Part shown: piece after piece, positions 6,978 to 36,213 of the stretch | Layout of the letters: every line of letters starts with the position of its first letter | How positions within the stretch are numbered: position 1 is the first letter of the stretch | From: a virus | Direction: 5' to 3' (one strand) | IMG/VR virus record: IMGVR_UViG_3300046000_013327 | Location: 1 to 36,213 of that record | DNA length: 36,213 nucleotides | The notes under the pieces: generated by a model | Told to the model about the DNA's origin: nothing | Database searches by the model: none | The model's input: only the letters and a program-made list of their open reading frames with translations | Made by a program: the position numbers and the translations under genes

Positions 6978-7868
6978 ATGCCAAAACGAATCGCCATAGA
7001 CACAGGAGTCGCAAGAGAGCTTTGCTACTCTGAACCGTCTTGGTTCAGCATGCTTATGTCGATGAGACAAGATGGCTGGACGTTTCACTTGTCCGATATT
7101 GCGATAGCCGAGCTGATTGCAGCTCGTGAGAGAAGTGCTCTGTCAGAGGATCAGTGGGCCGATGGCATCGCGCGCCTTGATAAGATTTTGGGTGACTTTT
7201 TTCCCTGTCTGCCGGGTAAGCGAGAACTATTCCATCTTTGCGGGTTCACCGATGATGAAGATCCGAATAAAGAACATCTCTCAGACGAATTCTTGTTGGA
7301 GTATTCGCGTGCAATTTGGGAGACAGTCAAACAACCCTTGGCTAACACCACGAATGGTGCGGAGGTGATCTTTAGCGTCGGATCAGAGAAGTTTAGATGC
7401 CCCGTCAAGCTGGGGGTGGCTGCGCAGGTTCTTGATGAAGAACGAGGGAAATGGATCGCAGAGATGTCACGAGAGCCCAAACCCGAGTTTGACTCCAGTG
7501 CTGTGGTAAATGCTACCAAGACTGACTTTGATTCTTGGGCGTCGACTGCCGGGCGACCGATGAGCTTACGAGGCGAAATCCTGGCCTATGCCCATGCGGA
7601 ATTTGAGAGGAGGCTAGCCAGCGGCTACAACCCCGCGAGTCCTAAACGGAAGAACGATGGAATCGATTTCTTGCTTCACTTTGCTTTCCTTTGGCCGGCC
7701 CTACTTGTCACAACTGACAAGTGGTTGTGCGGGTTCTTGCGCGGCCTTGATTCCTTTCAGGCCGACTGGACTTTTCTTCCCGATCAGCTTGCTGAAGCGT
7801 GGCAGAACGGCAGCCTCATCGAACCAAACTGGCCAGCTGACATCGACCAATCAAATTCCAGTGCCTGA
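6978..7868 (+). CDS. PIN-domain-like nuclease, accessory gene, 296 aa
   Basis: The arrangement of acidic residues fits a PIN-like fold: Asp8 in IAIDTG, Glu45 in IAIAELI, Asp227/Asp230 in KNDGIDFLL, and Asp247 in LVTTDKW. PIN domains are metal-dependent RNases, often toxins or defence effectors. At 296 residues it is about twice the size of a VapC toxin and has a large helical insertion (roughly residues 55-200). No small antitoxin gene is adjacent, so it is not a standard toxin-antitoxin pair. The base composition is lower in GC than the phage core, and the gene has a private promoter and similar flanking junctions. Superinfection exclusion or abortive defence is a reasonable but unproven role. 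Confidence 0.6.
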   Translation: MPKRIAIDTGVARELCYSEPSWFSMLMSMRQDGWTFHLSDIAIAELIAARERSALSEDQWADGIARLDKILGDFFPCLPGKRELFHLCGFTDDEDPNKEHLSDEFLLEYSRAIWETVKQPLANTTNGAEVIFSVGSEKFRCPVKLGVAAQVLDEERGKWIAEMSREPKPEFDSSAVVNATKTDFDSWASTAGRPMSLRGEILAYAHAEFERRLASGYNPASPKRKNDGIDFLLHFAFLWPALLVTTDKWLCGFLRGLDSFQADWTFLPDQLAEAWQNGSLIEPNWPADIDQSNSSA

Positions 7869-11548: not shown

Positions 11549-12984
11549 ACCGCCTCAAGCACATCGCGCACCTGCTCTTGCCACCTATTTTCGTGCCGAA
11601 GGCATGGGGCTCACCATACGAATCGGTAAACTGGTCTCCTCGTCGCGGGAGTGTGCCGGGCGCGTCACCAACCGACGCCCGCAACGAACTCACGCCGGGC
11701 GTCCGCACGGAGTTGGTTCGTAAGTCGCGATACATGCACAAGAACAGCGGTTTCGTGCGGGAGCTTGTCGCCAACATGGCGATTTACTCGACCGGCGACG
11801 GCATTCGCGTCCAGGCGCAATCACCCGATCCTCAGTGGAACCGTACCGCAGAAGCCTATTTCGCGATGTGGTCGCCCCGCTGTGAAGTGACGCGGCGGTT
11901 TTCGTTCGAGGAATGCCAGGCCCTGGTTTGTCGCGGCATGGACATCGACGGCGAGTATTTCATCCACAAGACCCGTGATGCCCAAGGCGAACCACGCATC
12001 CAGTTGATCGAATCCCACCGCGTAGGCGACCAGTTCGGTTCACAAGAAACCATCGACGGAGTCGGCCTCGATGCGTGGGGCGCACCGGTTTTCTATCGCA
12101 CGTTGGAAGACGACAGCAAACACCGTGATCTCCCCGCCGCGTCGGTTCTCCATATCCACGAACCCGAGTGGGCCGGTGGTGTCCGCTGTCACCCGACGAT
12201 CCAGCATTCGATCAATCATGTGCTCGATGAAATGGAATTGCTCGCTCTGGAAAAGCACGCGGTCAAAGACAATGCGGACGTGGCTCGCATCCTCAAGACG
12301 GCTCGCGGAGAGATCGACGACAACGGTGACTTCGTGGTCGGTGGCGGGTCCGGTGTCAGTGAGTCAAGCGACCCAGTTTCGCTGCAACGCATCGTCGGCG
12401 GCAAACTGGTGGCTCTCAGACCCGACGAGTCTCTCGACAGCTTTCAGTCGAACCGCCCATCGCCAACGTTCACCGGCTTCCTGGAACACCTGCGCCGTGA
12501 CTCCGCGCTAGGGATGATTCCCTTCGAGTTCGCGGCTGATTCCAGCAAGATCGGGGGCGCTGGTGTTAGATTGATCGTTGCAAAAGCGGATCGCCGCTTC
12601 TCGTTCCGCCAGATGATTCTCGAAAGCCGACTCATCAAACCGGTTTGGGCCTATGTGATCGGCGATGCCATTGCCCGCGGCTTCCTGCCACCGGTGCCAG
12701 GCTGGTGGAAGATCAGCTCCGTTCCTCCCAAGCGCGTGACCGTGGACGCCGGACGCGAGGCGCAACAAAACCGTGCTGACGTGGAAATGGGCCTGAAAAC
12801 CCTGTCTGATCACTTCAACGAACAAGGTGCCGACTTCGGCGAAGAAATCGAACGCCGCGCCAGCGATGCCAAGCTCATCTTGGATACAGCAGCGAAATAC
12901 GGCGTACCAGTGGACATGCTCTGGAAACCGAATGGCATGCCTGTGACACTCACGGAGCAGGAAGAGCCACCACCTGGCCGTTGA
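11545..12984 (+). CDS. Phage portal protein, lambda family, 479 aa
   Basis: The length and motifs match the lambda-type portal (gpB) family. Features include an N-terminal ARNELTPGVRTELVRKSRY segment, then NSGFVRELVANMAIYSTGDGI, a GMDIDGEYFI strand, LIESHRVGDQ, and the helical stem and wing region around residues 220-250. The Pro-rich C-terminus (EEPPPGR) is typical. The portal forms the dodecameric ring at one capsid vertex to which the terminase and connector bind. Its TGA stop is part of the TTGACA element that precedes the prohead protease gene. Confidence 0.9.
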   Translation: MNRLKHIAHLLLPPIFVPKAWGSPYESVNWSPRRGSVPGASPTDARNELTPGVRTELVRKSRYMHKNSGFVRELVANMAIYSTGDGIRVQAQSPDPQWNRTAEAYFAMWSPRCEVTRRFSFEECQALVCRGMDIDGEYFIHKTRDAQGEPRIQLIESHRVGDQFGSQETIDGVGLDAWGAPVFYRTLEDDSKHRDLPAASVLHIHEPEWAGGVRCHPTIQHSINHVLDEMELLALEKHAVKDNADVARILKTARGEIDDNGDFVVGGGSGVSESSDPVSLQRIVGGKLVALRPDESLDSFQSNRPSPTFTGFLEHLRRDSALGMIPFEFAADSSKIGGAGVRLIVAKADRRFSFRQMILESRLIKPVWAYVIGDAIARGFLPPVPGWWKISSVPPKRVTVDAGREAQQNRADVEMGLKTLSDHFNEQGADFGEEIERRASDAKLILDTAAKYGVPVDMLWKPNGMPVTLTEQEEPPPGR

Positions 12985-12999
12985 CACCGCCATCCGGGC

Positions 13000-14310
13000 G
13001 TGAACCCGGTAATTCAACATCGCGAGTGGCTGATCCAACCTGAAGCGCTGCAATCCATGGCCGCGTCCTTGCGGGGACTGGTAGATCGCGGCGGATTCCT
13101 CCCGAAGCAGGCATCCGAAAGCCCGCTGCTTACCATTGAGGATGGCATCGGCGTGGTTGCCATCGAAGGGCCAATCCTTCGCAAGCCCGATCTCTTCGCT
13201 CGGATCTTCTTCGGTGCCACCAGTGCCGAAGACATCGGCGAGGCTTTGCGTGAGGCAGGCGAACGCGACGACATCAAGGCCGTGTTTCTCAACATCGACT
13301 CGCCTGGCGGCACAGTGGCCGGCACGCCTGAACTCGCGGCGGCGGTGAAGGCTTTGAATGGAAGCAAGCCCGTCTATGCGTTCTCGTCCGGGCTCATGTG
13401 CTCGGCGGCCTATTGGATCGCCAGCCAGGCCCGCGCCATCTACGCCACGCCATCCGCTCAAGTCGGATCCATCGGCGTGGTGCAAGCGGTGATCGACAAC
13501 ACCGCCGCGCTCGATAAGGCGGGGCTCAAGGTCGAGGTTTTCTCCGTCGGCAAATACAAAGCGATGGGTGCGCCCGGCACTCCGCTAACAGACGACCAGC
13601 GCGAGTTGATTCAATCGAACCTCGCAGAGATCGCGGCCGAGTTTCATGACGCGGTGCTTTCTCGTGGCCGTGCCATTCCAGCCGAAGCCATGGAAGGCCA
13701 GACCTTCAGCGGTAAACAGGCTCAACGCCACAACCTCGCGGGCATGGTTTCGGATCGTGCGGACGCGATGCGCCGCCTCCGAGTCTATCACGCATCGGTT
13801 GACACGGCATCACGGTCGATGAAGACCATCGAAGACGAACTCGCCGAAGCCCGCACTCAGGTCGCCAACCTGCAGCGGGACCACCAAGCCCAGACCGATC
13901 TGCTTAACGAGGCATCGACCAGTGTCGATTCCCTGCGCGGCGAAGTGGAGCTGCTTTCCGCCGAAATCGACACGCTCAAGGCAGAGCGCGATGACGCGAA
14001 AAACCAAGCCGCCAATCTCATCACCGAGCGCGACTCCGCCAGCGCTCGTGTTTCCACGATGCAAACCCGAATCACCGAGCTGGAAGCATCGCAGACCGAC
14101 TTCGACCGCAAGCTGCAACTGGATGTCGCCCGCGTCGTCGCCTCCACCGGCACCACGATGCCAGCCCAAGTGACTCCTGCCGGAGATGCCTCCCAGGCTG
14201 CGGACCTCCATGCGCGTTTCGCCGCCATCACCGATCCCGCCGAGCAGACCGTCTTCTGGCGCAAGCTCACTCCCGAACAACAAGCCCTCATCCTCAAACA
14301 CCAAGCCTGA
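13000..14310 (+). CDS. S49 prohead protease fused to scaffold, 436 aa, GTG start
   Basis: Residues 45-255 are an S49 (SppA/lambda gpC-like) serine peptidase. They carry the oxyanion segment NIDSPGGTV (98-106), nucleophile Ser135 in GLMCSAAYW, and Lys187 in GKYKAMG at the spacing expected for the Ser-Lys dyad. Residues 274-375 are a long coiled coil, followed by an Ala/Thr-rich linker and a C-terminal segment (AEQTVFWRKLTPEQQALILK) like other scaffold tails. The protease matures the prohead and removes scaffold. The GTG start was chosen because it fits the start-context motif: TTGACA begins 19 nt upstream, as it does for several neighbours. An internal start for free scaffold is listed separately. 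Confidence 0.88.
   Translation: MNPVIQHREWLIQPEALQSMAASLRGLVDRGGFLPKQASESPLLTIEDGIGVVAIEGPILRKPDLFARIFFGATSAEDIGEALREAGERDDIKAVFLNIDSPGGTVAGTPELAAAVKALNGSKPVYAFSSGLMCSAAYWIASQARAIYATPSAQVGSIGVVQAVIDNTAALDKAGLKVEVFSVGKYKAMGAPGTPLTDDQRELIQSNLAEIAAEFHDAVLSRGRAIPAEAMEGQTFSGKQAQRHNLAGMVSDRADAMRRLRVYHASVDTASRSMKTIEDELAEARTQVANLQRDHQAQTDLLNEASTSVDSLRGEVELLSAEIDTLKAERDDAKNQAANLITERDSASARVSTMQTRITELEASQTDFDRKLQLDVARVVASTGTTMPAQVTPAGDASQAADLHARFAAITDPAEQTVFWRKLTPEQQALILKHQA
13819..14310 (+). CDS. Nested scaffold protein from internal start, 163 aa
   Basis: In lambda the scaffold Nu3 is translated from inside the protease gene C in the same frame. Here Met274 of the protease-scaffold protein lies exactly between the protease domain and the coiled coil. 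The sequence before it is GTTGACACGGCATCACGG, so TTGACA begins 20 nt before the ATG, the same signal that precedes other genes in this window. The product would start MKTIEDELAEARTQV and be an almost pure coiled coil plus tail. No Shine-Dalgarno is present, but none is used by the neighbours either. The existence of the free product is an inference. Confidence 0.5.
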   Translation: MKTIEDELAEARTQVANLQRDHQAQTDLLNEASTSVDSLRGEVELLSAEIDTLKAERDDAKNQAANLITERDSASARVSTMQTRITELEASQTDFDRKLQLDVARVVASTGTTMPAQVTPAGDASQAADLHARFAAITDPAEQTVFWRKLTPEQQALILKHQA

Positions 14311-14319
14311 TAACACGCC

Positions 14320-15216
14320 ATGTCCAACACCCTAACCAACGTCAAAGACATCAAGGTCGCCCAACGGGCGCTCATGCCCTTCATGTCGAACCTTCTGCCG
14401 GTCACGGCGTTCTCCACCGATTTCAGTCCGCTGCCAGCCGAAAAACTCGACACCGTGCGCGTTCCTCTCGTCGGTGCGCCCAGTGAATCGAGCGACTTCG
14501 CCGGTGACTATGCGGCCAATGCCGATTCCACGGTCACCGTGGTTCCAGTCACGCTCAACCGCCACAAATACAAGACCGTCCACGTGACCGCGAAGGAATC
14601 CGCAGAGACCTCGCTCAGCGTGCTCGAAACCCTGGTGGAAGCCGCCGCCCAGCAACTCGCTCAGGACGTTCTGGTGGACATCTTCAGTTGCATCACGCTC
14701 GCCAACTTCGGGACTCCGGGCATCGCCGCACTCGCCGCCACTGGCTTCGATTACAAGAAGGTGCTCAGCCTGCGCGAAGCTTGCGGCAATGCCAAGATGC
14801 CGCCCAACCCGCGTTCGCTCGTGCTCGACGCCGGTTACTACACCAACATGCTCGCCGATGACGTGGTGGCCAAGAGTTTCAACCTGAACCTCAACGCCCC
14901 GGCAGTCACCGAAGGCATGGTCAAACGGCTCGCCGGATTCAACCTGCACGAGACGACCCTCATCCCGTCGGATCACGCGGAAAAACTTGTTGGCTTCGCA
15001 GCTCACTCCAGCGCCGTCGCGGTGGCCATGCGCTACCTCCAGCCGGTGGCCGACTACCAGCAAGCCGGTGCCGTCACCGATCCCGCCACGGGCATGACTT
15101 TCGGCTACCTCCGTTTCACCGACACCCGCGCCAACAAGATCTTCGTCACCCTCGAATGCCTCTATGGCTTCGCCCCGGCCAAGACCGACGCCCTCAAGCG
15201 GATCGTCAAACCATAA
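14320..15216 (+). CDS. Major capsid protein, 298 aa
   Basis: The protein directly follows the protease/scaffold gene. It has the size and composition of a major capsid protein of a protease-matured phage: a helical N-terminus, a beta-rich centre (STVTVVPVTLNRHKYKTVHV) that could be the E-loop and P-domain, and a C-terminal VTLECLYGFAPAKTDALKRI. The central segment LNAPAVTEGMVKRLAGFNLHE fits the A-domain of HK97-fold capsids in this family. There is no separate head-decoration gene between protease and capsid. The start lies 9 nt after the previous stop and has no Shine-Dalgarno. A strong hairpin follows the stop. Confidence 0.82.
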   Translation: MSNTLTNVKDIKVAQRALMPFMSNLLPVTAFSTDFSPLPAEKLDTVRVPLVGAPSESSDFAGDYAANADSTVTVVPVTLNRHKYKTVHVTAKESAETSLSVLETLVEAAAQQLAQDVLVDIFSCITLANFGTPGIAALAATGFDYKKVLSLREACGNAKMPPNPRSLVLDAGYYTNMLADDVVAKSFNLNLNAPAVTEGMVKRLAGFNLHETTLIPSDHAEKLVGFAAHSSAVAVAMRYLQPVADYQQAGAVTDPATGMTFGYLRFTDTRANKIFVTLECLYGFAPAKTDALKRIVKP

Positions 15217-15246
15217 GCCTCTTTGGAGTTCGATTGGCATCCTTCA

Positions 15247-15276
15247 CCCTCTCTCGGGAAACCGGGAGGGGGTGTT
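15247..15276 (+). terminator. Hairpin terminator after capsid gene, copy 1 of repeat
   Basis: CCCTCTCTCGG and CCGGGAGGGGG form an 11-bp stem (two G-T pairs) closed by a GAAA tetraloop and followed by TGTTGT. It lies 30 nt after the capsid stop. The full 30-nt element is repeated identically at 16717-16746. A weak T tract follows, so termination may be partial; an mRNA-stabilising role downstream of the most abundant transcript is also possible. Confidence 0.7.
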
Positions 15277-15308
15277 GTCGATGTGGCGGGCTGGGTAATT
15301 CTCATCGA

Positions 15309-15863
15309 TCAAATATCAATCGGTCGCCACATCAACGGTGGCATTATCTTGTTTGCGTGGAACGCTTGAAACGCGGCAAGCACATCTTCCAGTTTCAGAA
15401 GATCCCGAAACTCCCCCCGGCTCACGTAATTGACTTGCTTGAGAGCGCGAGGCTTCTCGGAACCGCCGGGGCGGCAGGCTCGCAGGTGGCTATAATCGTT
15501 AGGGCTTTTCCATGTGATTCTTGCCTCTAGGTGCCAACCGTTTAAACCGCGAAGGCATTGGATGTATGTATTCCCGGGACGTGCAAGACAGGCGAAACTG
15601 TTGAATTGCCCTGGATCGAGCTCTCGGATCACCTCATCAACCTCAAGCCAAATTGGGTTTTTCCATTTGAGTCCTATTTCATTATTCAACACCATCCGTC
15701 CGCCAACGGGTTTCTGACCCCACTTCGCCAAGAAGTCCTCCATCGCCTTTTCAGCATTTTCCCTGTCTTCTTCTGTGTAAATAGGAACCGCCTTCCTCGG
15801 TGCACGACCTTTTTTGAGGGGAGAATCCGATGGCGATTTAGGCTCGTTTTTCTTCAGTTTCAT
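15309..15863 (-). CDS. Hypothetical accessory protein, 184 aa
   Basis: I do not recognise this protein with confidence. It starts with a Lys-rich basic segment (MKLKKNEPKSPSDSPLKKGR) and continues as an alpha/beta domain with many Trp residues. It ends FQAFHANKIMPPLMWRPIDI. The pattern near the end (a helix with an AFQAF core, a short Pro turn and a WRPI strand) recalls small single-domain immunity-type proteins, but this is only an impression. It is transcribed against the phage late genes and lies inside the repeat-bracketed island, as expected of a lysogenic-conversion or defence gene. Its promoter should lie in the divergent spacer at 15864-16041. Confidence 0.6.
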   Translation of the reverse strand: MKLKKNEPKSPSDSPLKKGRAPRKAVPIYTEEDRENAEKAMEDFLAKWGQKPVGGRMVLNNEIGLKWKNPIWLEVDEVIRELDPGQFNSFACLARPGNTYIQCLRGLNGWHLEARITWKSPNDYSHLRACRPGGSEKPRALKQVNYVSRGEFRDLLKLEDVLAAFQAFHANKIMPPLMWRPIDI

Positions 15864-16180
15864 AGAGGCTATTTATCGCAAATTTAGGTCAAAATTACGA
15901 ATAAAAACGACTGATTTTCAGCATGATTTTCATGCCAAAATTTTTTTCCCACGCCCGAATCCCTGTGATTGACGCGATTCTACATTCAATATCCACCCCC
16001 CAGATGCCAGGCGGCTAGAAGGTCGGATTTTCCAAACCTCGATGGCGCGTATCGCTCTGCATAAGGAGCTGATTGAGCGTGTCGAAACGGCTCGAAAAAA
16101 CGATGATTTGCCTTGCTCCGAAGGGCCAAAGTTTTACTATCTGTTGGTCCAGAAGAAAGGAACCAATAGCACCAAAAACC
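15864..16180. promoter_or_regulatory. Divergent AT-rich spacer with perfect dyad
   Basis: This spacer separates a minus-strand gene from a plus-strand gene and is the most AT-rich part of the window up to about 15960. It contains GCATGATTTTCATGC (15921-15935), a perfect 6-bp inverted repeat with a 3-nt centre, followed by an A/T-run. This could be an operator or, on the plus strand, a small terminator. TTGACG occurs at 15969, but I see no convincing -10 at the right spacing. Short open frames between 16042 and 16180 look fortuitous and are not called. Confidence 0.4.
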
Positions 16181-16435
16181 ATGGCAAACATCGTAAAAAT
16201 ATCCATCCCCGAAATCAAACTTGGAAGAACTACAGTAGTGCCTATCGAAGTGAAAACGAAAGATGGCATCTTGGGAGTTTTAAGCGTCGCCCAAGGCAAG
16301 CTAGAGTGGCTTCCACGCGGTAAACAGATCCCATGTGAAATCCGTTGGAAGGAGTTCGATAAATACGCCACAAGCCTACGAACAGTCAAACGCAAGAAGG
16401 CGGCAAAACGCGCTAGAAATAAGAAGCAAGACTAG
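16181..16435 (+). CDS. Small hypothetical protein, 84 aa
   Basis: The ATG at 16181 begins a compact beta-rich unit: two strands, GILGVLSVAQGKLEWLPRGK, then a WKEFDKYA helix. It ends in a strongly basic tail (KRKKAAKRARNKKQ). The layout (a strand pair with G-K-L-E-W-L-P, then W-x-x-F-D) recalls small uncharacterised proteins common on mobile elements; I know of no function. An earlier in-frame ATG at 16073 would add 36 residues of low coherence and was not chosen. The gene is followed after 3 nt by the next one. The basic tail hints at nucleic-acid contact. Confidence 0.55.
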   Translation: MANIVKISIPEIKLGRTTVVPIEVKTKDGILGVLSVAQGKLEWLPRGKQIPCEIRWKEFDKYATSLRTVKRKKAAKRARNKKQD

Positions 16436-16438
16436 CAT

Positions 16439-16654
16439 ATGAATAACAAAGAAAACTCTTCGAGCGAAAAGGAGAGGATTTTGTTTTCTGAGGCAGATGA
16501 GCAGAAAACAGACAGTCATCTGCATGCTGAAATGCTAGAATCGGTTGCTTCAGTTGCCGATGAAGCCGGTATCCGCATCCTTATGGATACTTGCGGACTA
16601 ACAAGAGATTTGGCGCTTAAACTCGTTCGCCCGGATAAATCCGGAGGTCCGTGA
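16439..16654 (+). CDS. Small hypothetical protein, 71 aa
   Basis: I do not recognise this protein. It is acidic and Ser/Glu-rich at the start (NKENSSSEKERILFSEADE) and helical afterwards (LHAEMLESVASVADEAGI). It lies 3 nt after the basic 84-aa protein, and the opposite charge of the two makes a pair plausible, though unproven. Its lower GC matches the rest of the island. The 126 nt after its stop hold only the second terminator copy and the start signal for the connector gene. Confidence 0.5.
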   Translation: MNNKENSSSEKERILFSEADEQKTDSHLHAEMLESVASVADEAGIRILMDTCGLTRDLALKLVRPDKSGGP

Positions 16655-16716
16655 AATATGCTGATGCTGTGATTTGAGCTGATTTAGCCGACATCAGCGC
16701 ATTTAGGCATTTCATG

Positions 16717-16746
16717 CCCTCTCTCGGGAAACCGGGAGGGGGTGTT
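16717..16746 (+). terminator. Hairpin terminator, copy 2 of repeat
   Basis: This is identical over 30 nt to the element at 15247-15276: an 11-bp stem with a GAAA loop, here followed by a better T-rich tail (TGTTTTGTTT). It lies after the two plus-strand accessory genes and before the connector gene, so the accessory transcript would stop here. The duplication marks the right border of accessory island 2. Confidence 0.72.
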
Positions 16747-16780
16747 TTGTTTCAAGCTCGATTGACACGCCACGCTTGGC

Positions 16781-17089
16781 GTGAACGCGATCCAAGCCGC
16801 TGCTGCCGAAGCCTTCGTCGAAATCCTGCGTGATGCGGGTGTGCCGGTGACCATCGGAGGCAAGGACTATCAGGCGATGGTCTCGCCGAGCGGACTGGCG
16901 GTCGATCTTGAGGAAGGCGGCTTCACCCAGGACGGATCGCTCACGGTGAGGCTGCTCGTGACACATCTGCCAACTCCGCTTCCCGCCCACAACGACACGA
17001 TCCTCATCGGTGGTGAGCGCCACAAGATCGAGGAAATCAACCGCAAGCCCGGCTCCGGCATCATCGAATACCGCGTGGCCCGCCGCTGA
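16781..17089 (+). CDS. Head-tail connector protein, GTG start, 102 aa
   Basis: The position after the capsid gene and the short beta-rich sequence (VPVTIGGKDYQAMVSP, then LIGGERHKIEEINRKPGSGI) fit an FII/HK97-type head-tail joining protein that caps the portal and receives the tail. The GTG is chosen because TTGACA starts 19 nt before it and a perfect dyad ACGCCA/TGGCGT lies between. Only weak family similarity can be claimed by eye. It lies 7 nt before the next gene. Confidence 0.6.
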   Translation: MNAIQAAAAEAFVEILRDAGVPVTIGGKDYQAMVSPSGLAVDLEEGGFTQDGSLTVRLLVTHLPTPLPAHNDTILIGGERHKIEEINRKPGSGIIEYRVARR

Positions 17090-17096
17090 AAACCTC

Positions 17097-17498
17097 ATGA
17101 ACCAAGCCATCGAAGATTACCTGGCCGGTCTGTTCACCTCCACGCAACTCATTCCCGCGCCCGAGGTGTTCACCGGGACTTCCTCCGACATCCGCACACC
17201 GGAATCTCACGCGATTCTCGTGCTGGCAGACTCGATTGAAAACGTGGTGGGCCCGTTGCATCGGGCGACGGTCAAGATTCTCGTCTCGTCACCCACCGAC
17301 GACCGGACCCAACACGCCACTCTCGCCCATTTAGTGAAGGGCATCATGGAAGGCGTGCTGCCTGCGGCGAACGGATTCACCATCGGCGGATTCAGGACGA
17401 AAGCCAACTCGACCGCCGTGACGGACGATGATCGGTGGCTCACCACCATCGAAGGGATTCTCGGTGTGGATTGGACGCCGGTTGACAACACGCCGTAA
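17097..17498 (+). CDS. Tail-completion/terminator-position protein, 133 aa
   Basis: The size and place between the connector and the tube-like proteins fit a minor tail protein of the gpU/gpZ type, which closes the tail tube and joins it to the head. The sequence shows an N-terminal helix (MNQAIEDYLAGLF), a beta-rich middle (HRATVKILVSSPTDD) and WLTTIEGILGVDWTP near the end, all common in such proteins. The ATG at 17097 was preferred because upstream in-frame codons lie within the connector gene. Assignment is mainly positional. Confidence 0.5.
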   Translation: MNQAIEDYLAGLFTSTQLIPAPEVFTGTSSDIRTPESHAILVLADSIENVVGPLHRATVKILVSSPTDDRTQHATLAHLVKGIMEGVLPAANGFTIGGFRTKANSTAVTDDDRWLTTIEGILGVDWTPVDNTP

Positions 17499-17503
17499 GA
17501 GTC

Positions 17504-17818
17504 ATGCCCGCCACCTTCGGAGTCACCAACTTGCACGGACTCGCGCCCGCCACCGGCCACGCCCAGGAAGCGTCTGCGGACTCATCCATCGAAGTGGCGA
17601 CGCTGCGGGATTCGCTCGGTGTGACGGTGGTGGCAAAGCCGAAGAAGCTCATCACCCGCAGCATCACGCTATCCGGAAAAGGCACCGTGAATTTTGGCGA
17701 TGTCGCCGCAGGGGCGATCACCAAGGGCGTCTCGTTCGTGACGTCGGTCAAGGTGACGGAAAGCAACGACGACTTCCCCGGCTTCGAGATTCAGGCCGTC
17801 GCCTACGACGACATCTAA
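17504..17818 (+). CDS. Small tail protein, possible tube protein A, 104 aa
   Basis: This is a short beta-rich protein with no membrane segment, placed where the major tail tube gene is expected. It resembles the next gene product in overall layout. The segment SITLSGKG corresponds to SFSFSVKG, and TSVKVTESNDDFPGFEIQAV corresponds to TTVKNSQTNEDYNSFELSGV. The two are therefore probably tandem paralogues. TTGACA starts 22 nt before the ATG. Which of the two forms the tube, or whether both do, cannot be decided here. Confidence 0.5.
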   Translation: MPATFGVTNLHGLAPATGHAQEASADSSIEVATLRDSLGVTVVAKPKKLITRSITLSGKGTVNFGDVAAGAITKGVSFVTSVKVTESNDDFPGFEIQAVAYDDI

Positions 17819-17832
17819 CATTCAACAATTCC

Positions 17833-18168
17833 ATGCCCGCCGCGTTCAACGAAATCGGAGTCAAGTGCGTCACCGCCGCCCTCGTGGAGAGCGTGGACGT
17901 GCAGAAGCAGCTCGAACACAAGATCATCAAGAAGAGCGACGGCGCATTCGAAACGGGCAACCGCTACGACCCGTCCTTCAGTTTCAGCGTCAAGGGCCGG
18001 GGTGTCGCTGATGAATCCCTGCTGGGTGGAGCCTCCGCCGCCTACGTGCCCGAACAGATCACGGGCGGAACCACGATCATCACCACCGTCAAAAACTCCC
18101 AGACCAACGAGGATTACAACTCGTTCGAGTTGTCGGGAGTGAACCATCCCGCCGCAGGCGCGGCATGA
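17833..18168 (+). CDS. Small tail protein, possible tube protein B, 111 aa
   Basis: This is the likely tandem paralogue of the preceding protein; both end in a beta strand, an acidic turn and a final strand. It carries a longer central insertion (around GGASAAYVPEQITGG). The position before the G/GT chaperone genes fits a tail tube component. The ATG at 17833 follows the previous stop by 14 nt and starts MPAAF, similar to the MPATF start of its neighbour. Its real partner count in the virion is unknown. Confidence 0.5.
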   Translation: MPAAFNEIGVKCVTAALVESVDVQKQLEHKIIKKSDGAFETGNRYDPSFSFSVKGRGVADESLLGGASAAYVPEQITGGTTIITTVKNSQTNEDYNSFELSGVNHPAAGAA

Positions 18169-18201
18169 TGCATTCTGCCCAAAGATCACCTGAAATCACC
18201 C

Positions 18202-18669
18202 ATGAAAGAAGGAATCACCATCAGCGTCGTGCGCGATCACGACACGAAACCCACCGAAAGCCGCAACACCCGGCTTGTCGCTGCGGCACTCTCAAGCGGC
18301 GGCATGTTCGCCACCGAAGCCGCCTATTCCGACACGGTCGAACAGACGCCCAATGGCGCGAAACGCACCGTAACCTGGCTCATGGACGGCGCGGCCAAAA
18401 TCAGCTTTGAACCCATCGAGGTCGCGGAAAGCATCACCTTCGACGAGTTCCGCAAGCGTTATGAATCGCTCGCCTGGTGCGAGGCCAACGCCAACCACCC
18501 CATTGCCTATCTGCGGGCGATGAATGACCAGCACAACCGGCTGCTCGACAAAGTCAAGACGATGCGCCCGATGCTGCTGATCCGTAAAGGCAAGCGCATC
18601 GCCATCGTGCCGAGCGGTTCTGACGAGGCATCTAAGGCCACCCGCGAGCAAATCCTTTCCGAATTCTAA
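18202..18669 (+). CDS. Tail-region hypothetical protein, 155 aa
   Basis: I do not recognise this protein. It has a beta-rich N-terminal half and a helical C-terminal half (ITFDEFRKRYESLAWCEANANHP), ending in ATREQILSEF. It lies between the tube-like genes and the frameshifted chaperone gene, and there is no membrane segment. A structural or assembly role in the tail is inferred from position only. Confidence 0.5.
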   Translation: MKEGITISVVRDHDTKPTESRNTRLVAAALSSGGMFATEAAYSDTVEQTPNGAKRTVTWLMDGAAKISFEPIEVAESITFDEFRKRYESLAWCEANANHPIAYLRAMNDQHNRLLDKVKTMRPMLLIRKGKRIAIVPSGSDEASKATREQILSEF

Positions 18670-18673
18670 CAAC

Positions 18674-19093
18674 ATGAACGACCGCGAACTTCAACTGGCC
18701 ACTGGCATGATCGACAGCGGGGAACGCCAGATCGGCAACCTCAAGCTGCGTCCATACACCATGGGCTCGATGCAACTGGCCTATCTGCTCAAGCTCACCA
18801 TGTTCACCCGTGGCAAGGATGATCCACCGTTGGAGCTTGATGATTTGGAAGAGCAGCGGCAGATCATGGCCTTTGCATGGATGCAGTCGGCTGATGAAGA
18901 TGACATCGCGGACGCCGTTCGTGACGACACCGTGGATCGTTGCGTGCTCAAATTCTCTCTCAACGTCACTTTCGACATGCTCCCGGGTTTGATGGCGGAA
19001 ATCAACCGGATCAACGCGATGCTTGCCGCATCCAGCGTCCGCGTCGAAAGCAAGTATCCGTCCAGCGAGGACGATGCGCCGGGAAAGTCCTGA
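18674..19093 (+). CDS. Tail assembly chaperone, gpG-like, 139 aa
   Basis: A helical, acidic protein directly upstream of the tape measure region, with the position and size of the lambda gpG chaperone. The C-terminal codons run Ala-Pro-Gly-Lys-Ser-stop across a GGGAAAG heptamer. Translation to the stop gives the short form; a -1 slip gives the longer GT-like form listed separately. The chaperones wrap the tape measure protein and set tail assembly. Family similarity is not strong by eye; the frameshift signal is the best evidence. Confidence 0.75.
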   Translation: MNDRELQLATGMIDSGERQIGNLKLRPYTMGSMQLAYLLKLTMFTRGKDDPPLELDDLEEQRQIMAFAWMQSADEDDIADAVRDDTVDRCVLKFSLNVTFDMLPGLMAEINRINAMLAASSVRVESKYPSSEDDAPGKS

Positions 19094-19335
19094 ACCCCGG
19101 CTGGCTGGCGAGCGCGGTGTTCACCATCGCCAAGGACACCGGTTGGAGCGAGGACTTCATCATCTGGCGACTACCGATGGCGCGTGCCCTCCAGTATTAC
19201 CATTGCTCGCTCCAAGCGGCCAATCTCTGGACGCTTGAACCACCCACCGAAGAGACGATGCAGGCACTCGCACCGGACGAGCTGATCGGTCTCATCGACC
19301 GCATGGTTGACGATGGCGACGATGACGATGGGTGA
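18674..19335 (+). CDS. Tail chaperone GT-like fusion made by -1 frameshift
   Basis: The second frame continues from Lys137 of the gpG-like protein through VLNPGWLASAVFTIA to an acidic end (DRMVDDGDDDDG), with its stop at 19333-19335. No good start codon begins this second segment: any upstream ATG in its frame lies deep inside the first gene and yields an Arg/Gln-rich shadow sequence. The slip site GGGAAAG is read G-GGA-AAG in the zero frame, exactly as in lambda G/GT. The fusion is expected in a small fraction of translations; that ratio is known from lambda, not measured here. Confidence 0.85.
19081..19087 (+). other. Programmed -1 frameshift slippery heptamer GGGAAAG
   Basis: The heptamer G-GGA-AAG has the X-XXY-YYZ pattern with zero-frame codons GGA and AAG. 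After a one-base backward slip the next codon is GTC at 19087, which opens the second frame. The zero-frame stop TGA is at 19091-19093, only four bases after the heptamer. The sequence is the same as the lambda G/GT slip site. Confidence 0.88.
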
Positions 19336-20002
19336 TGAGGTGAAATTCAAACTGCATGTCGATGAGTTCCAGCGCGCCGCCGACCGTCTCGCCGCTTACT
19401 CGAAGCGCGACGGAGAGACGTTCATGAAGGAACAAGTTCGCGGATTCATCCGGCACTTGTTGGATTTTACTCCGCCGAGCCGTGGCAGCACGCGAGGTGT
19501 CAAAGCGAAGAAGCTGGGTGAGCAAGCGATTGTTGGCGACATCCGCGCCGTGTTTCGTGGTGTGTCCGATCCGAAGCGGGCGGATGTGGATTCGTTAGCG
19601 CAAATGCGTTCGGTGCTCAAGTCGCGGCGAAAGAGCGGGACTATGCGCGTGGCCAAGGGCGGCACCAAGCTCAAGGCACCGAAGGCGCTGATTGCCGAGT
19701 TGATCAAGGCGAAGAAAGCGCGGGTCGGCTATCTGGCATCGGCATGGGCCACGGCGGCGCAGAGCGTTGGGAAAATCCGAGTGCCCGCGTGGGTGTCGCG
19801 CCATGCCGCGCCGGGAAGCACCGACATCACGGTGAAGGATGGCGAGATCAATGCGTCGATCACCAATGCGGTGGAGTGGGCCGCCAAGGTCAATGGCCTG
19901 CGGGCGCGGGTGAATGCCGCGCTCCGTGTGCAGACCCGCTCGATGGAAAAACGGCTGCTCTATTTCTTCGCCAACGTGAAGGGCAAGTCCGGCTTCGATT
20001 GA
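19328..20002 (+). CDS. Tail-region hypothetical protein, 224 aa
   Basis: I do not recognise this protein. It is basic and helical, with a long Lys/Arg-rich middle and an ending that contains EWAAKVNGLRARVNAALRVQTRSMEKRL. Several starts are possible (TTG 19307, ATG 19313, 19322, 19328). I prefer 19328 because TTGACG starts 21 nt before it, as for neighbouring genes. It then overlaps the end of the GT-like frame by 8 bases. It lies directly before the tape measure gene, where a minor tail or assembly protein is expected. Confidence 0.55.
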   Translation: MGDEVKFKLHVDEFQRAADRLAAYSKRDGETFMKEQVRGFIRHLLDFTPPSRGSTRGVKAKKLGEQAIVGDIRAVFRGVSDPKRADVDSLAQMRSVLKSRRKSGTMRVAKGGTKLKAPKALIAELIKAKKARVGYLASAWATAAQSVGKIRVPAWVSRHAAPGSTDITVKDGEINASITNAVEWAAKVNGLRARVNAALRVQTRSMEKRLLYFFANVKGKSGFD

Positions 20003-24170: not shown

Positions 24171-24328
24171 GTGAGGAAACCAAAGACGGCTTCGGCTTGG
24201 ACAAGGAACAACGACTTCTCGCCAAACGCCTGGGCAAGGAAGAGGAAGAAGCGGAGCAGGCCGCCGGGTTGGAACCGCCGTTTCCCTACGTCATGACGAA
24301 GTTCGACGCAGCGTATTTCGAGCTGTGA
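24167..24328 (+). CDS. Small acidic tail-region protein, 53 aa
   Basis: The gene starts in an ATGA overlap with the preceding stop and encodes MSEETKDGFGLDKEQRL followed by a charged helix (GKEEEEAEQA) and YVMTKFDAAYFEL. It is too small to recognise. The overlap, codon use and coherent composition support it as real. It ends in the left copy of the 16-bp repeat that brackets accessory island 3. Confidence 0.6.
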   Translation: MSEETKDGFGLDKEQRLLAKRLGKEEEEAEQAAGLEPPFPYVMTKFDAAYFEL

Positions 24329-25221
24329 GTTGACGCGGCTGCTGCGGTTAAGAAATCGGCTCCAATCAATGAAGGTCTTGGATTGCATGCGGCCACGTTT
24401 TGCCGCAAGCTGGACAAGAAAATGCTTCATCTTCTCACACTCAATCTTATCCAGCTTGACGAAACGCGAATGCCCATTGGTTATGCCTCGGGCTGCCTGA
24501 TTCATTATCGGGAGCGCATATTCGTGGCAACCGTCTTTCACGCCACGGGAAATTACGGTAATTGGGCAATTGAGATCGGGTTGGATCCATCCAACGGAAA
24601 GATGGCTTTGTATCAGCTTGGACAAATGTCGTTTGTTCAGAAGTTTGTCCTGAAGCGCAACAAACTCAAAGAACGTGAATTCGATTTTTCCTATAAGCTA
24701 TTGAATGAGGCGATATTACCGCGACGGCAGATAATCAATAAGGACGGCATCATAGAATACGATGAGGCTATCGTCCCGATTTCTACTGAGCTTTCAGATC
24801 AACCGAATCCTGATAAGCGTTATGGCTTTTGGGGATGCACCAAACAAGAAAAAGAAGGTAAGTTTGTTAAAGTCACCCAGAAATGCGAAACTGAACTGCG
24901 GTTTGAGAAAATCGGCGAGTACAACCAACTGTATTTCTTTCGCGCTCGAGCGCGCTATCGGAGCTACGAAGAATACAAAGGCTGCAGCGGTGCCCCAATC
25001 ATGAGCAAAGACGGTGATTTTGTCGCGCTAACAGTAGAGGGGGATAAGAAAAAGACAGGAATTTTTGGCTTGCCGATCCATACTGTCAGACCGCTTTTCG
25101 ATGTCGAAATCTTACAAGCCGAAGCAGGTTCCCTTTGATGCTGGTCGCAAAAAATACCCTCTTCGAGATCTTAGCAATAACGCCGGATTACGGAAGTTGA
25201 TATACCTGTGGGTTGACGCGG
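24323..25221. other. Accessory island 3 bracketed by 16-bp imperfect repeat
   Basis: The left border is CTGTGAGTTGACGCGG (24323-24338) and the right border is CTGTGGGTTGACGCGG (25206-25221), a direct repeat with one mismatch. Between them lies one lower-GC gene unlike its tail-gene neighbours. Collapsing the repeat would place the 53-aa gene directly before the large tail gene at 25244. The non-coding parts (24339-24421 and 25139-25205) hold no further gene that I can support. Confidence 0.65.
24422..25138 (+). CDS. Trypsin-fold serine protease-like accessory protein, 238 aa
   Basis: The features of a chymotrypsin-like peptidase are visible: His40 in FVATVFHAT, a possible Asp88 in REFDFSYKL, and nucleophile Ser189 in KGCSGAPIM, followed by a Val/Gly-rich strand and GLPIHTV. 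There is no signal peptide, so it probably acts in the cytoplasm. An upstream ATG at 24383 would add 13 residues and cannot be excluded. The lower GC, the flanking repeat and the place within tail genes mark it as an accessory gene. Intracellular trypsin-like proteases occur in anti-phage systems, so a defence role is possible but unproven. Confidence 0.65.
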   Translation: MLHLLTLNLIQLDETRMPIGYASGCLIHYRERIFVATVFHATGNYGNWAIEIGLDPSNGKMALYQLGQMSFVQKFVLKRNKLKEREFDFSYKLLNEAILPRRQIINKDGIIEYDEAIVPISTELSDQPNPDKRYGFWGCTKQEKEGKFVKVTQKCETELRFEKIGEYNQLYFFRARARYRSYEEYKGCSGAPIMSKDGDFVALTVEGDKKKTGIFGLPIHTVRPLFDVEILQAEAGSL

Positions 25222-34663: not shown

Positions 34664-34891
34664 TTACGCTGCGTCGATCTTGTATTTCTTGCGGATGGCT
34701 GCCATGACTGCCTCGACTTCGTAGAGATAGAGTCGTGGAGTTACTTTGATGCAGGGTATTTCGCGACGCTGAACCCAAGCGTCAATCGTGTGGGGGCTGA
34801 CTGATAGACGCTTGGCGAGTTCCTTCTTTTTGATCAGAATCGGTTCGTTGTTCGTCGCCGGATCGTTGTTGGAGTGAATGACAGTGTTCAT
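34664..34891 (-). CDS. Excisionase-like HTH protein, 75 aa
   Basis: The core KKKELAKRLSVSPHTIDAWV is a winged-helix/MerR-type HTH of the excisionase (Xis/AlpA-like) family. It is followed by RREIPCIKVTPRLYLYEVE, which forms the wing. Such proteins bend DNA at attachment sites and steer integrase toward excision, or act as small regulators. It overlaps the integrase stop by four bases and lies downstream of it in transcription order, so both come from one transcript. The order integrase then Xis-like protein is the reverse of lambda. Confidence 0.72.
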   Translation of the reverse strand: MNTVIHSNNDPATNNEPILIKKKELAKRLSVSPHTIDAWVQRREIPCIKVTPRLYLYEVEAVMAAIRKKYKIDAA

Positions 34892-36213
34892 GCGGCATCG
34901 GCTTCGTTGTCAACATGCGGTGTCCCATCTTGTGCCAGCAAGCGACGCATCCGCTCTCGCAGGCTGTGCTTGAGTCCCGTCGGCATCCAGCCGTCCGGCG
35001 GGGTGATCCCGAACCACGTTCGGGCGGCCTCCTCATCCACGATCTCCCGGTAGTGGCGGAAGATCATTTTAGGGGAGTTGCCAGCCTCCAGAGAGGTTCG
35101 AGCTACGTCGCCTGTCATGGACACGCGATAGCTGATGAACGAGTGTCTGAGGGCATTCTGACGCCATCCGCCGGGGATTTTCGCCTTCACGGCGGTATCA
35201 CCCAAGGCACCCGACACATCGCTGATCGTGAGGATCGGGCCGGTTTCGTCACGCCATGGCGCAAGCCACGCCTTGAGATTCTCGGGGAGGGGGACGAGTC
35301 GCCGCGCCGCCGTCTTCGCCTTGTGGCCGGCGATCTCGATGTGCCCCCGATCCCACTTGATGTCCTGCCAGGTGAGGCGTTCGACCTCGGCTGACCGGAT
35401 TCCGCAAAATCCGCCGATGGCGATGAGCGGCAGGATGCGGGCGTGGGCGGCGAGCAGGATGTCACGCATTTCGTCTGGCGTGAAAATCTCGATCTCCTTC
35501 TCAGGCTCCTTGAACGAATCGCTCTGTTCCGCAGAAGTTTTCCGGTCGGGATGGAGGTATCCCTGTTTCTTGGCGAATCCAAACATCGTAACGAGGTTGC
35601 GCCGAATGCCGTTCTTGCTGACCGGCCCAAGCGTCTTCAGACCGTCGAGGAAACGATTGATGTCGGCCACGCTGACATCTGCGATATTTCCCGGCATGGC
35701 ATCGGTGAACCGCTTGAGGCTGCTCGTCGCGTTCCTGACGTAGATGTCACTCACGCCCTTCCGTTTCAGTGACACGACGAACTCGGCCGCCACCTGGACG
35801 TTTGTCCGGACGGCGAACAAGTCAGCCCGGTTCGCCTGGTAGAACCGGACGGCATCGGAGAGCGGGATTTCACCTGCGGCTTTCCGTGCGCTGGCCCATT
35901 CGTCCATCGCGGCGGAAAGACCGACTCCATGTTCCCGTGCCACTTGCTCGCAGTGGCGAAGCAGGTCGATGTCGCGGCGGGTCGCCTCATCTGCGGCCGT
36001 CCAGCCGTTGGTCAATCGGACGCTGATCTGCTGGGCGATCATCCGAGCTTCTTCCATGGCTGAGAAGCTGCGGGTCTTGCGCCTGCCAGCCTCCTTCCAT
36101 GAAAGCGTGAACTCGGGATAACCATCCCGACGGTTCATCGTGTAGATCTTGATTCTCGCGGGACCGTTGCCGATTTCCACGACACTGCTGCGACGTTTGC
36201 GTTTCCGGGTCAT
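34888..36213 (-). CDS. int: Tyrosine recombinase integrase, 441 aa
   Basis: The catalytic domain is clear: Arg273 in GIRSAEVERLTW, Lys298/300 in GHKAKTAARRL, Arg356-His357 in NALRHSFISY, and Tyr388 in MIFRHYRE. An N-terminal SAM-like core-binding domain (about residues 120-215) and a basic arm (KRKRR) precede it. Two His positions commonly conserved in the family are Asn here (Asn353 and Asn379). It integrates and, with the HTH protein, excises the phage. The ATG is at the very edge of the window, so a longer N-terminus cannot be excluded. The attachment site is not visible. Confidence 0.9.
   Translation of the reverse strand: MTRKRKRRSSVVEIGNGPARIKIYTMNRRDGYPEFTLSWKEAGRRKTRSFSAMEEARMIAQQISVRLTNGWTAADEATRRDIDLLRHCEQVAREHGVGLSAAMDEWASARKAAGEIPLSDAVRFYQANRADLFAVRTNVQVAAEFVVSLKRKGVSDIYVRNATSSLKRFTDAMPGNIADVSVADINRFLDGLKTLGPVSKNGIRRNLVTMFGFAKKQGYLHPDRKTSAEQSDSFKEPEKEIEIFTPDEMRDILLAAHARILPLIAIGGFCGIRSAEVERLTWQDIKWDRGHIEIAGHKAKTAARRLVPLPENLKAWLAPWRDETGPILTISDVSGALGDTAVKAKIPGGWRQNALRHSFISYRVSMTGDVARTSLEAGNSPKMIFRHYREIVDEEAARTWFGITPPDGWMPTGLKHSLRERMRRLLAQDGTPHVDNEADAA

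Follow-up and report, generated by a model that had tools for sequence, protein, structure and literature searches.

The window analysed here is the whole 36,213-nucleotide stretch of the IMG/VR virus record IMGVR_UViG_3300046000_013327. By its gene content it is assigned to a lambda-like temperate phage, and its annotation includes a tyrosine integrase on the minus strand (34888-36213). The genes for TerL (PHROG 15), portal, S49 protease and major capsid protein follow one another in that order on the 5' side of the locus considered below, and on its 3' side a small head-closure gene precedes the tail genes. Between the two blocks lies an island of about 1.44 kb with a GC content of about 46% (0.44-0.53 inside) versus about 0.60 outside. 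The features of the locus are the following, L051 being the independent contig IMGVR_UViG_3300048583_000459:

14320-15216 (+), major capsid gene, left neighbour and conserved anchor (PHROG 283, E 2.7e-25)
15245-15276 (+), first hairpin copy, the native terminator-like element behind the capsid gene, its T-tract cut short by the island
15277-16714 (no strand), inserted accessory island, low in GC and missing from empty sites; its left junction recurs in L051
15309-15863 (-), accessory gene A, 184 aa, family unknown, antisense to the late genes; homologues in L049, L053, L054, L059 and Akkermansiaceae chromosomes
15864-15935 (-), gene A upstream region, with a start-proximal segment (ATTTGCGATAAAT..C..CTATG) conserved in phage homologues
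16181-16435 (+), accessory gene B, encoding a small basic protein under weak constraint; prophage L197 has a homologue at 38%
16439-16654 (+), accessory gene C, 71 aa; 48-49% homologue in L197, downstream of the gene B homologue
16715-16752 (+), second hairpin copy with its T-tract (TTTTGTTT); the flank on its right is native and matches the empty site of contig L003 exactly
16761-16783 (+), ATTGAC element, invariant right edge of all insertions here, 19 nt before the head-closure start codon
16781-17089 (+), head-closure gene, lambda FII-like, right neighbour (Phage_attach PF05354, E 3.7e-4, and phrog_82, E 0.01, both weak; a weak match is also Hc1-like)

The two hairpins share a 30-nt element, CCCTCTCTCGGGAAACCGGGAGGGGGTGTT, located at 15247-15276 and 16717-16746, 1470 nt apart and 100% identical. 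This exact duplication, already reported in a preliminary description of the same DNA, is confirmed, and no further match to the element is found within the window at three mismatches or fewer (0 expected in 100 shuffles). Both copies fold as strong GAAA-loop hairpins (z -3.3 and -3.6). The GAAA loop originally described therefore stands and the 11-bp stem does not, since the flanking bases extend it to 13 bp in the left copy (CACCC...GGGTG) and to 14 bp in the right one. Similarly, of the terminators proposed for both ends, the hairpin fold is found in both copies, and the terminator-like score and the T-tract are properties of the right copy only; the left one continues GTGTT-GTCG, that is, two T and then GTCG. 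The absence of the T-tract makes the activity of the left hairpin doubtful, and its loss implies that the join fell inside the terminator. A search in Rfam gave no hit. The pair is identical in the window and diverged in L051, a difference that calls for gene conversion or else for recent re-entry.

The gap between the major capsid and the lambda FII-like head-closure genes is an accessory-gene (moron) hotspot. Its core layout consists of the capsid stop codon, about 28 nt, the terminator-like hairpin with its T-tract, and an RTTGAC motif 19 nt before the head-closure start codon. In the empty state the two genes are 87-98 bp apart and enclose exactly one hairpin, as seen in 13 contigs, 12 of them viral and one from a MAG (L003, L013, L027, L042, L017-L024 and L083), a count of non-independent events, many contigs being near-identical and eight of them (L017-L024) close to each other. 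L003 has a capsid 99% identical to that of the window, and its right flank matches that of the window letter for letter. The uninterrupted, one-hairpin version of the site that had been predicted among relatives is thus found, and the case named against the insertion, relatives devoid of the island and still carrying two hairpins, was not encountered: every empty site has one. Closed occupied sites hold 588 to ~5840 bp and about ten unrelated cargo types, always between the capsid gene and the RTTGAC element. The cargos with recognizable domains are listed here; further ones encode large secreted-looking proteins.

L033, Fic_N/Fic (Pfam); L009 also Fic, by sequence
L007, AbiEii (Pfam)
L012, AbiEi (Pfam); likewise L059 at the corresponding place
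L050, PP2C plus kinase/FGE with DuOB (Pfam)
L045, GNAT, FGE and RNase_T, an exonuclease (Pfam)
L009, Sel1/trypsin (Pfam)
L040, PDDEXK (just below the Pfam cut-off)

Relatives of the capsid, 79-99% identical, are frequent in IMG/VR and are present in MAGs of Akkermansiaceae and other Verrucomicrobiota, which points to hosts within or close to the Akkermansiaceae; the family is accordingly described as one of viruses of freshwater Akkermansiaceae. A BLAST search of window 14.3-17.5 kb against GenBank phages gave no match.

The 11-13 bp stem is kept in all 17 hairpin variants tested (17/17), and nearly all variants run into a T-rich stretch. Some phages have an additional gene behind the capsid gene; there the hairpin comes after that gene (about +575), still just 5' of the head-closure gene. 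In 254 Akkermansiaceae genomes, 11 copies were counted in 10 genomes, mostly at capsid-gene ends or behind the extra gene. The one exception (L167/L172) has the hairpin 5' of an AbiEi gene with no capsid nearby; in the parallel locus L173 a truncated capsid and an integrase are still present together with the same AbiEi. Being rare in hosts and nearly always placed at capsid-type prophage loci, the hairpin is an element of these phages and no repeat scattered over host genomes; such scattering was the other finding that would have spoken against the proposed insertion. It is best described as a conserved, presumptive post-capsid terminator-like element. The chromosomal AbiEi genes of L172 (genome G252) and L173 (genome G012) keep the phage hairpin together with a palindrome, have a convergent ubiquitin-barrel gene nearby, and look like prophage remnants with retained cargo. 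The palindrome is an imperfect one of 55-60 nt, GTTTGAAAT...ATTTCAAAC, found directly 3' of the post-capsid terminator in many phages with or without cargo (L007:6961-7022, L016, L052:3035-3097, L033:5196-5257, L166, L172 and others); its reading as an integron attC was dropped, the arm order being wrong by inspection.

As to the content of the island, no head or tail gene is found in its ~1.44 kb, in agreement with what had been noted for the interval between the hairpins. The island recurs in L051 at 94% identity, with left junction and neighbours unchanged, and synonymous and nonsynonymous codon changes between the two contigs were used as a coding test. Gene A (6 synonymous/1 nonsynonymous) and gene C (11/6) behave as coding. 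Gene B is open in both contigs and weakly constrained (9/13). The three-gene island previously proposed consequently holds for genes A and C, with gene B an open frame of less certain standing. An additional frame at 16042-16323 was rejected as a gene, its start being lost and a stop gained in L051 (5/15 changes). Divergence from L051 is about 1.3% in gene A and several times more in the right half of the island, which implies that the island is itself mosaic. A related prophage of genome G011 (L197) has homologues of genes B and C close to its tape-measure gene, separated by about 660 bp and with their order and orientation preserved.

Gene A is, to judge by its codon changes, a real and strongly constrained gene. 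Its homologues in related phages (62% identity in L049, 53% in L053, L054 and L059) share the minus-strand orientation and lie two genes farther downstream; others occur in several Akkermansiaceae chromosomes, and remote relatives of about 130 aa are present in other genomes of the host order. The segment 5' of its start is conserved among the phage copies and not among the chromosomal ones, and a 65-nt conserved blastn match to the upstream region is found in L049. This would be consistent with gene A moving with its own promoter, and the start-proximal segment is a possible extended -10 element of a near-leaderless transcript. A simple promoter scan of positions 13000-20000 detected no sigma-70 sites. 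An inverted repeat around the gene A stop codon (15277-15288/15325-15336) is not claimed, the compensatory change being absent in L051. In the same window, a low-GC gene of 296 aa (6978-7868) precedes the packaging genes; a PHROG search gave no hit for it, and it has no DNA match among the fetched loci, few of which cover that region.

The gene A protein gave no hit in Pfam (up to E 10), NCBIfam, PHROG or PADLOC and nothing meaningful against plasmids, GenBank phages and the PDB. A doubtful proposal for its role, compatible with the moron hotspot, is that of an Imm1-like immunity protein of a polymorphic toxin system, which would shield lysogens from rival toxins. Its size and a conserved NPPWxxV / LDPGxxNS / W-R-IDI pattern, which we take to resemble that of Imm1, point in this direction, as does a chromosomal homologue (L136) located among small genes of unknown family. 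However, the Pfam search gave no match to Imm1 (PF14430), an hhalign comparison with an Imm1 protein reached a probability of only 12.5%, and the AlphaFold model built from 5 sequences (pLDDT 42) is not interpretable and thus unusable here. The immunity-like features initially attributed to the protein are accordingly not substantiated, and what is kept is gene A as a reasonable candidate for lysogenic conversion, in view of its minus strand and of its own conserved upstream region.

Taking the locus as a whole, it is probable that the window island is one of the occupants of an accessory (moron) hotspot that temperate, lambda-like phages of Akkermansiaceae have in their late operon. The clues to how cargo enters come from a few junctions. 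In L015, a 164-bp repeat (90%) consisting of a second copy of the capsid 3' end, leader and hairpin separates an AbiE cargo from another one; in L073 the hairpin is followed by a broken duplicate of the 5' end of the head-closure gene; L008 and L026 have 2.5 kb in common, with it most of the L008 cargo, and the left and right hairpins of L008 are of different subtypes. The capsid-end repeat of L015 and the mixed hairpins of L008 make recombination between related phages at a conserved boundary the best supported route, and a likely one as far as these few junctions (L015, L008, L073) can be read. Cargo would be gained or exchanged in this way: one crossover would fall at the conserved capsid 3' end/terminator, and the other would be illegitimate, with selection restricting it to places that spare the downstream start signal. 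Where donor and acceptor terminators were both retained, two hairpins would bracket the cargo, and the pair in the window may be the scar of one such insertion. Two-hairpin sites accompany five different cargos (window/L051, L008/L010/L011, L015, L032 and L044); most of the others have one, and at closed sites most cargo types have the left hairpin only. The double terminator, put forward earlier as a simple way for cargo to enter, is not the general way but a minority outcome, and in the window its left copy lacks the T-tract. Functionally, the post-capsid hairpin would lower read-through from the capsid to the connector genes, gene A would be expressed in lysogens as an antisense transcript from its own promoter in the prophage, and genes B and C would be read with the late transcripts ending at hairpin 2 with its T-tract; termination, promoter and lysogen expression are all deduced from sequence.

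The direction of the event could also be the opposite, with the two-hairpin occupied state ancestral and the empty sites produced by deletion between the hairpins. Recombination of identical 30-nt repeats would yield exactly a one-hairpin empty site, and the right flank of the window is identical to that of L003. Nevertheless, this is unlikely given the low GC of the island, the unrelated cargos held by the same site, the single hairpin of most occupied sites and the several hairpin subtypes among empty ones. About equally unlikely is the insertion of a self-mobile element, such as a transposon or integron cassette, with the 30-nt repeat as its target-site duplication. The insert is indeed flanked by an exact direct repeat, and the second island of the window (24339-25221) also has a 16-nt near-exact direct repeat on either side. 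However, the island holds no transposase or recombinase, its proteins having no match in Pfam, NCBIfam or PADLOC and only weak PHROG hits that carry no functional annotation; no inverted repeat pair was found at the two island ends, the repeat is a native, functional-looking element, the duplication is missing from other cargos at the same site, and the cargos have no common ends beyond the site itself. An assembly chimera or binning artefact, conceivable for a metagenomic virus record, is refuted for practical purposes by the same island, junction and neighbours in L051.

The right edge of the hotspot belongs to a wider pattern. In 12 of its 32 occurrences in the window, the motif [AG]TTGAC is followed at +19 to +22 by the start codon of an open frame, the top result of all 1024 five-mers tested (next best 9/161):

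6116, 8009, 8632, 10447, 12981, 13799, 16762, 19999, 31308 and others, [AG]TTGAC 19-22 nt before start codons

In 18 related, hence non-independent, phage loci, 107 start-codon hits were counted for 212 RTTGAC occurrences, versus 2/55 in five host-chromosome loci. The motif is also placed before an in-frame internal ATG (13819) inside the protease gene, a possible start for a scaffold similar to lambda Nu3. A small hairpin between RTTGAC and the start codon was rejected, folding no better than shuffles (fraction beaten 0.52). A second family-wide hotspot is the portal-protease gap (window 12984-13000; L005, L014, L017, L024, L041, L054 and others), with inserts of about 170-3700 bp; GTTGACA is always left, about 19-23 nt before the protease start. 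A second low-GC island of the window (24323-25221) contains an ORF (24383-25138) that is trypsin-like by eye, and its direct repeats, CTGTG[A/G]GTTGACGCGG, form a 16-nt repeat containing the RTTGAC motif; L119 has an empty version of that site with one repeat copy, and the insert is missing in L116, L117 and L124 too. Elsewhere, an Akkermansiaceae phage contig encodes, between TerL and portal, a ubiquitin with a signal-peptide-like N-terminus (L100:2640-3131, +), and host chromosomes (L172:6665-7861; L173:5244-6446; L188-L193) encode ubiquitin fused, by eye, to an autotransporter-like barrel; P0007 matches 25 of 254 genomes, mostly in the ubiquitin part. Tentatively, the late region may be made of independently started translation units, insulated by the phage-specific RTTGAC 19-22 nt before the start and by short terminators. 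If so, cargo could enter before any such unit without polar damage, and one and the same architecture would provide the landing pads at 25.2 kb, between portal and protease and between capsid and head closure.

The kind of arrangement is already known. The morons of the lambdoid phages HK97 and HK022 are reportedly extra genes between core genes that are adjacent in relatives (Juhala et al. 2000, cited in PMC7067206). The Akkermansiaceae site resembles them in the differing composition, the associated terminator-like element and the position often antisense to late genes; it differs in that the terminator-like hairpin belongs to the core site and can be duplicated, and in that the promoter is a candidate one. 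In the window, the flanking core genes are adjacent in 13 empty relatives, GC is about 0.46 versus 0.60, and the candidate terminator takes the form of a hairpin plus T-tract in the right copy and of a hairpin without T-tract in the left one. Phage T7 has its Tphi terminator directly after capsid gene 10, a likeness in position with a different polymerase, and to our knowledge Tphi is not a cargo site. P2/P4-type prophage/satellite defence hotspots rapidly exchange their cargos at one conserved locus; the likeness extends to abortive-infection-type genes such as AbiE, whereas the present site occupies the head-connector interval, its cargos include secreted giants, and the putative defence role is read from the genes. 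In SPP1, three morons bracketed by transcription signals stand in the virion module (PMC6316719). That block (8-10) is comparable to the window island in its three genes, its place among capsid genes and the transcriptional signals, putative ones in the window, on either side; SPP1 has a further accessory ORF (14) in the interval from capsid to head-completion genes (PMC6316719). SPP1 is, however, lytic and its block also holds oriR, whereas the Akkermansiaceae site holds many alternative cargos across relatives. An antisense position in the lytic region, as that of gene A, is considered typical of morons (PMC7067206). No description of this docking site and its cargo range was found in the literature searched.

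The junctions of L015, L008 and L073 are of use in that the mechanism of moron exchange can be read from them, and the RTTGAC start-site motif is amenable to reporter tests. From a biological perspective, the site shows where a little-studied group of Verrucomicrobiota phages keeps its exchangeable genes, among them AbiE, Fic and families without known function, and, since these are gathered at one place, it offers a place to look for new genes of phage defence or lysogenic conversion.
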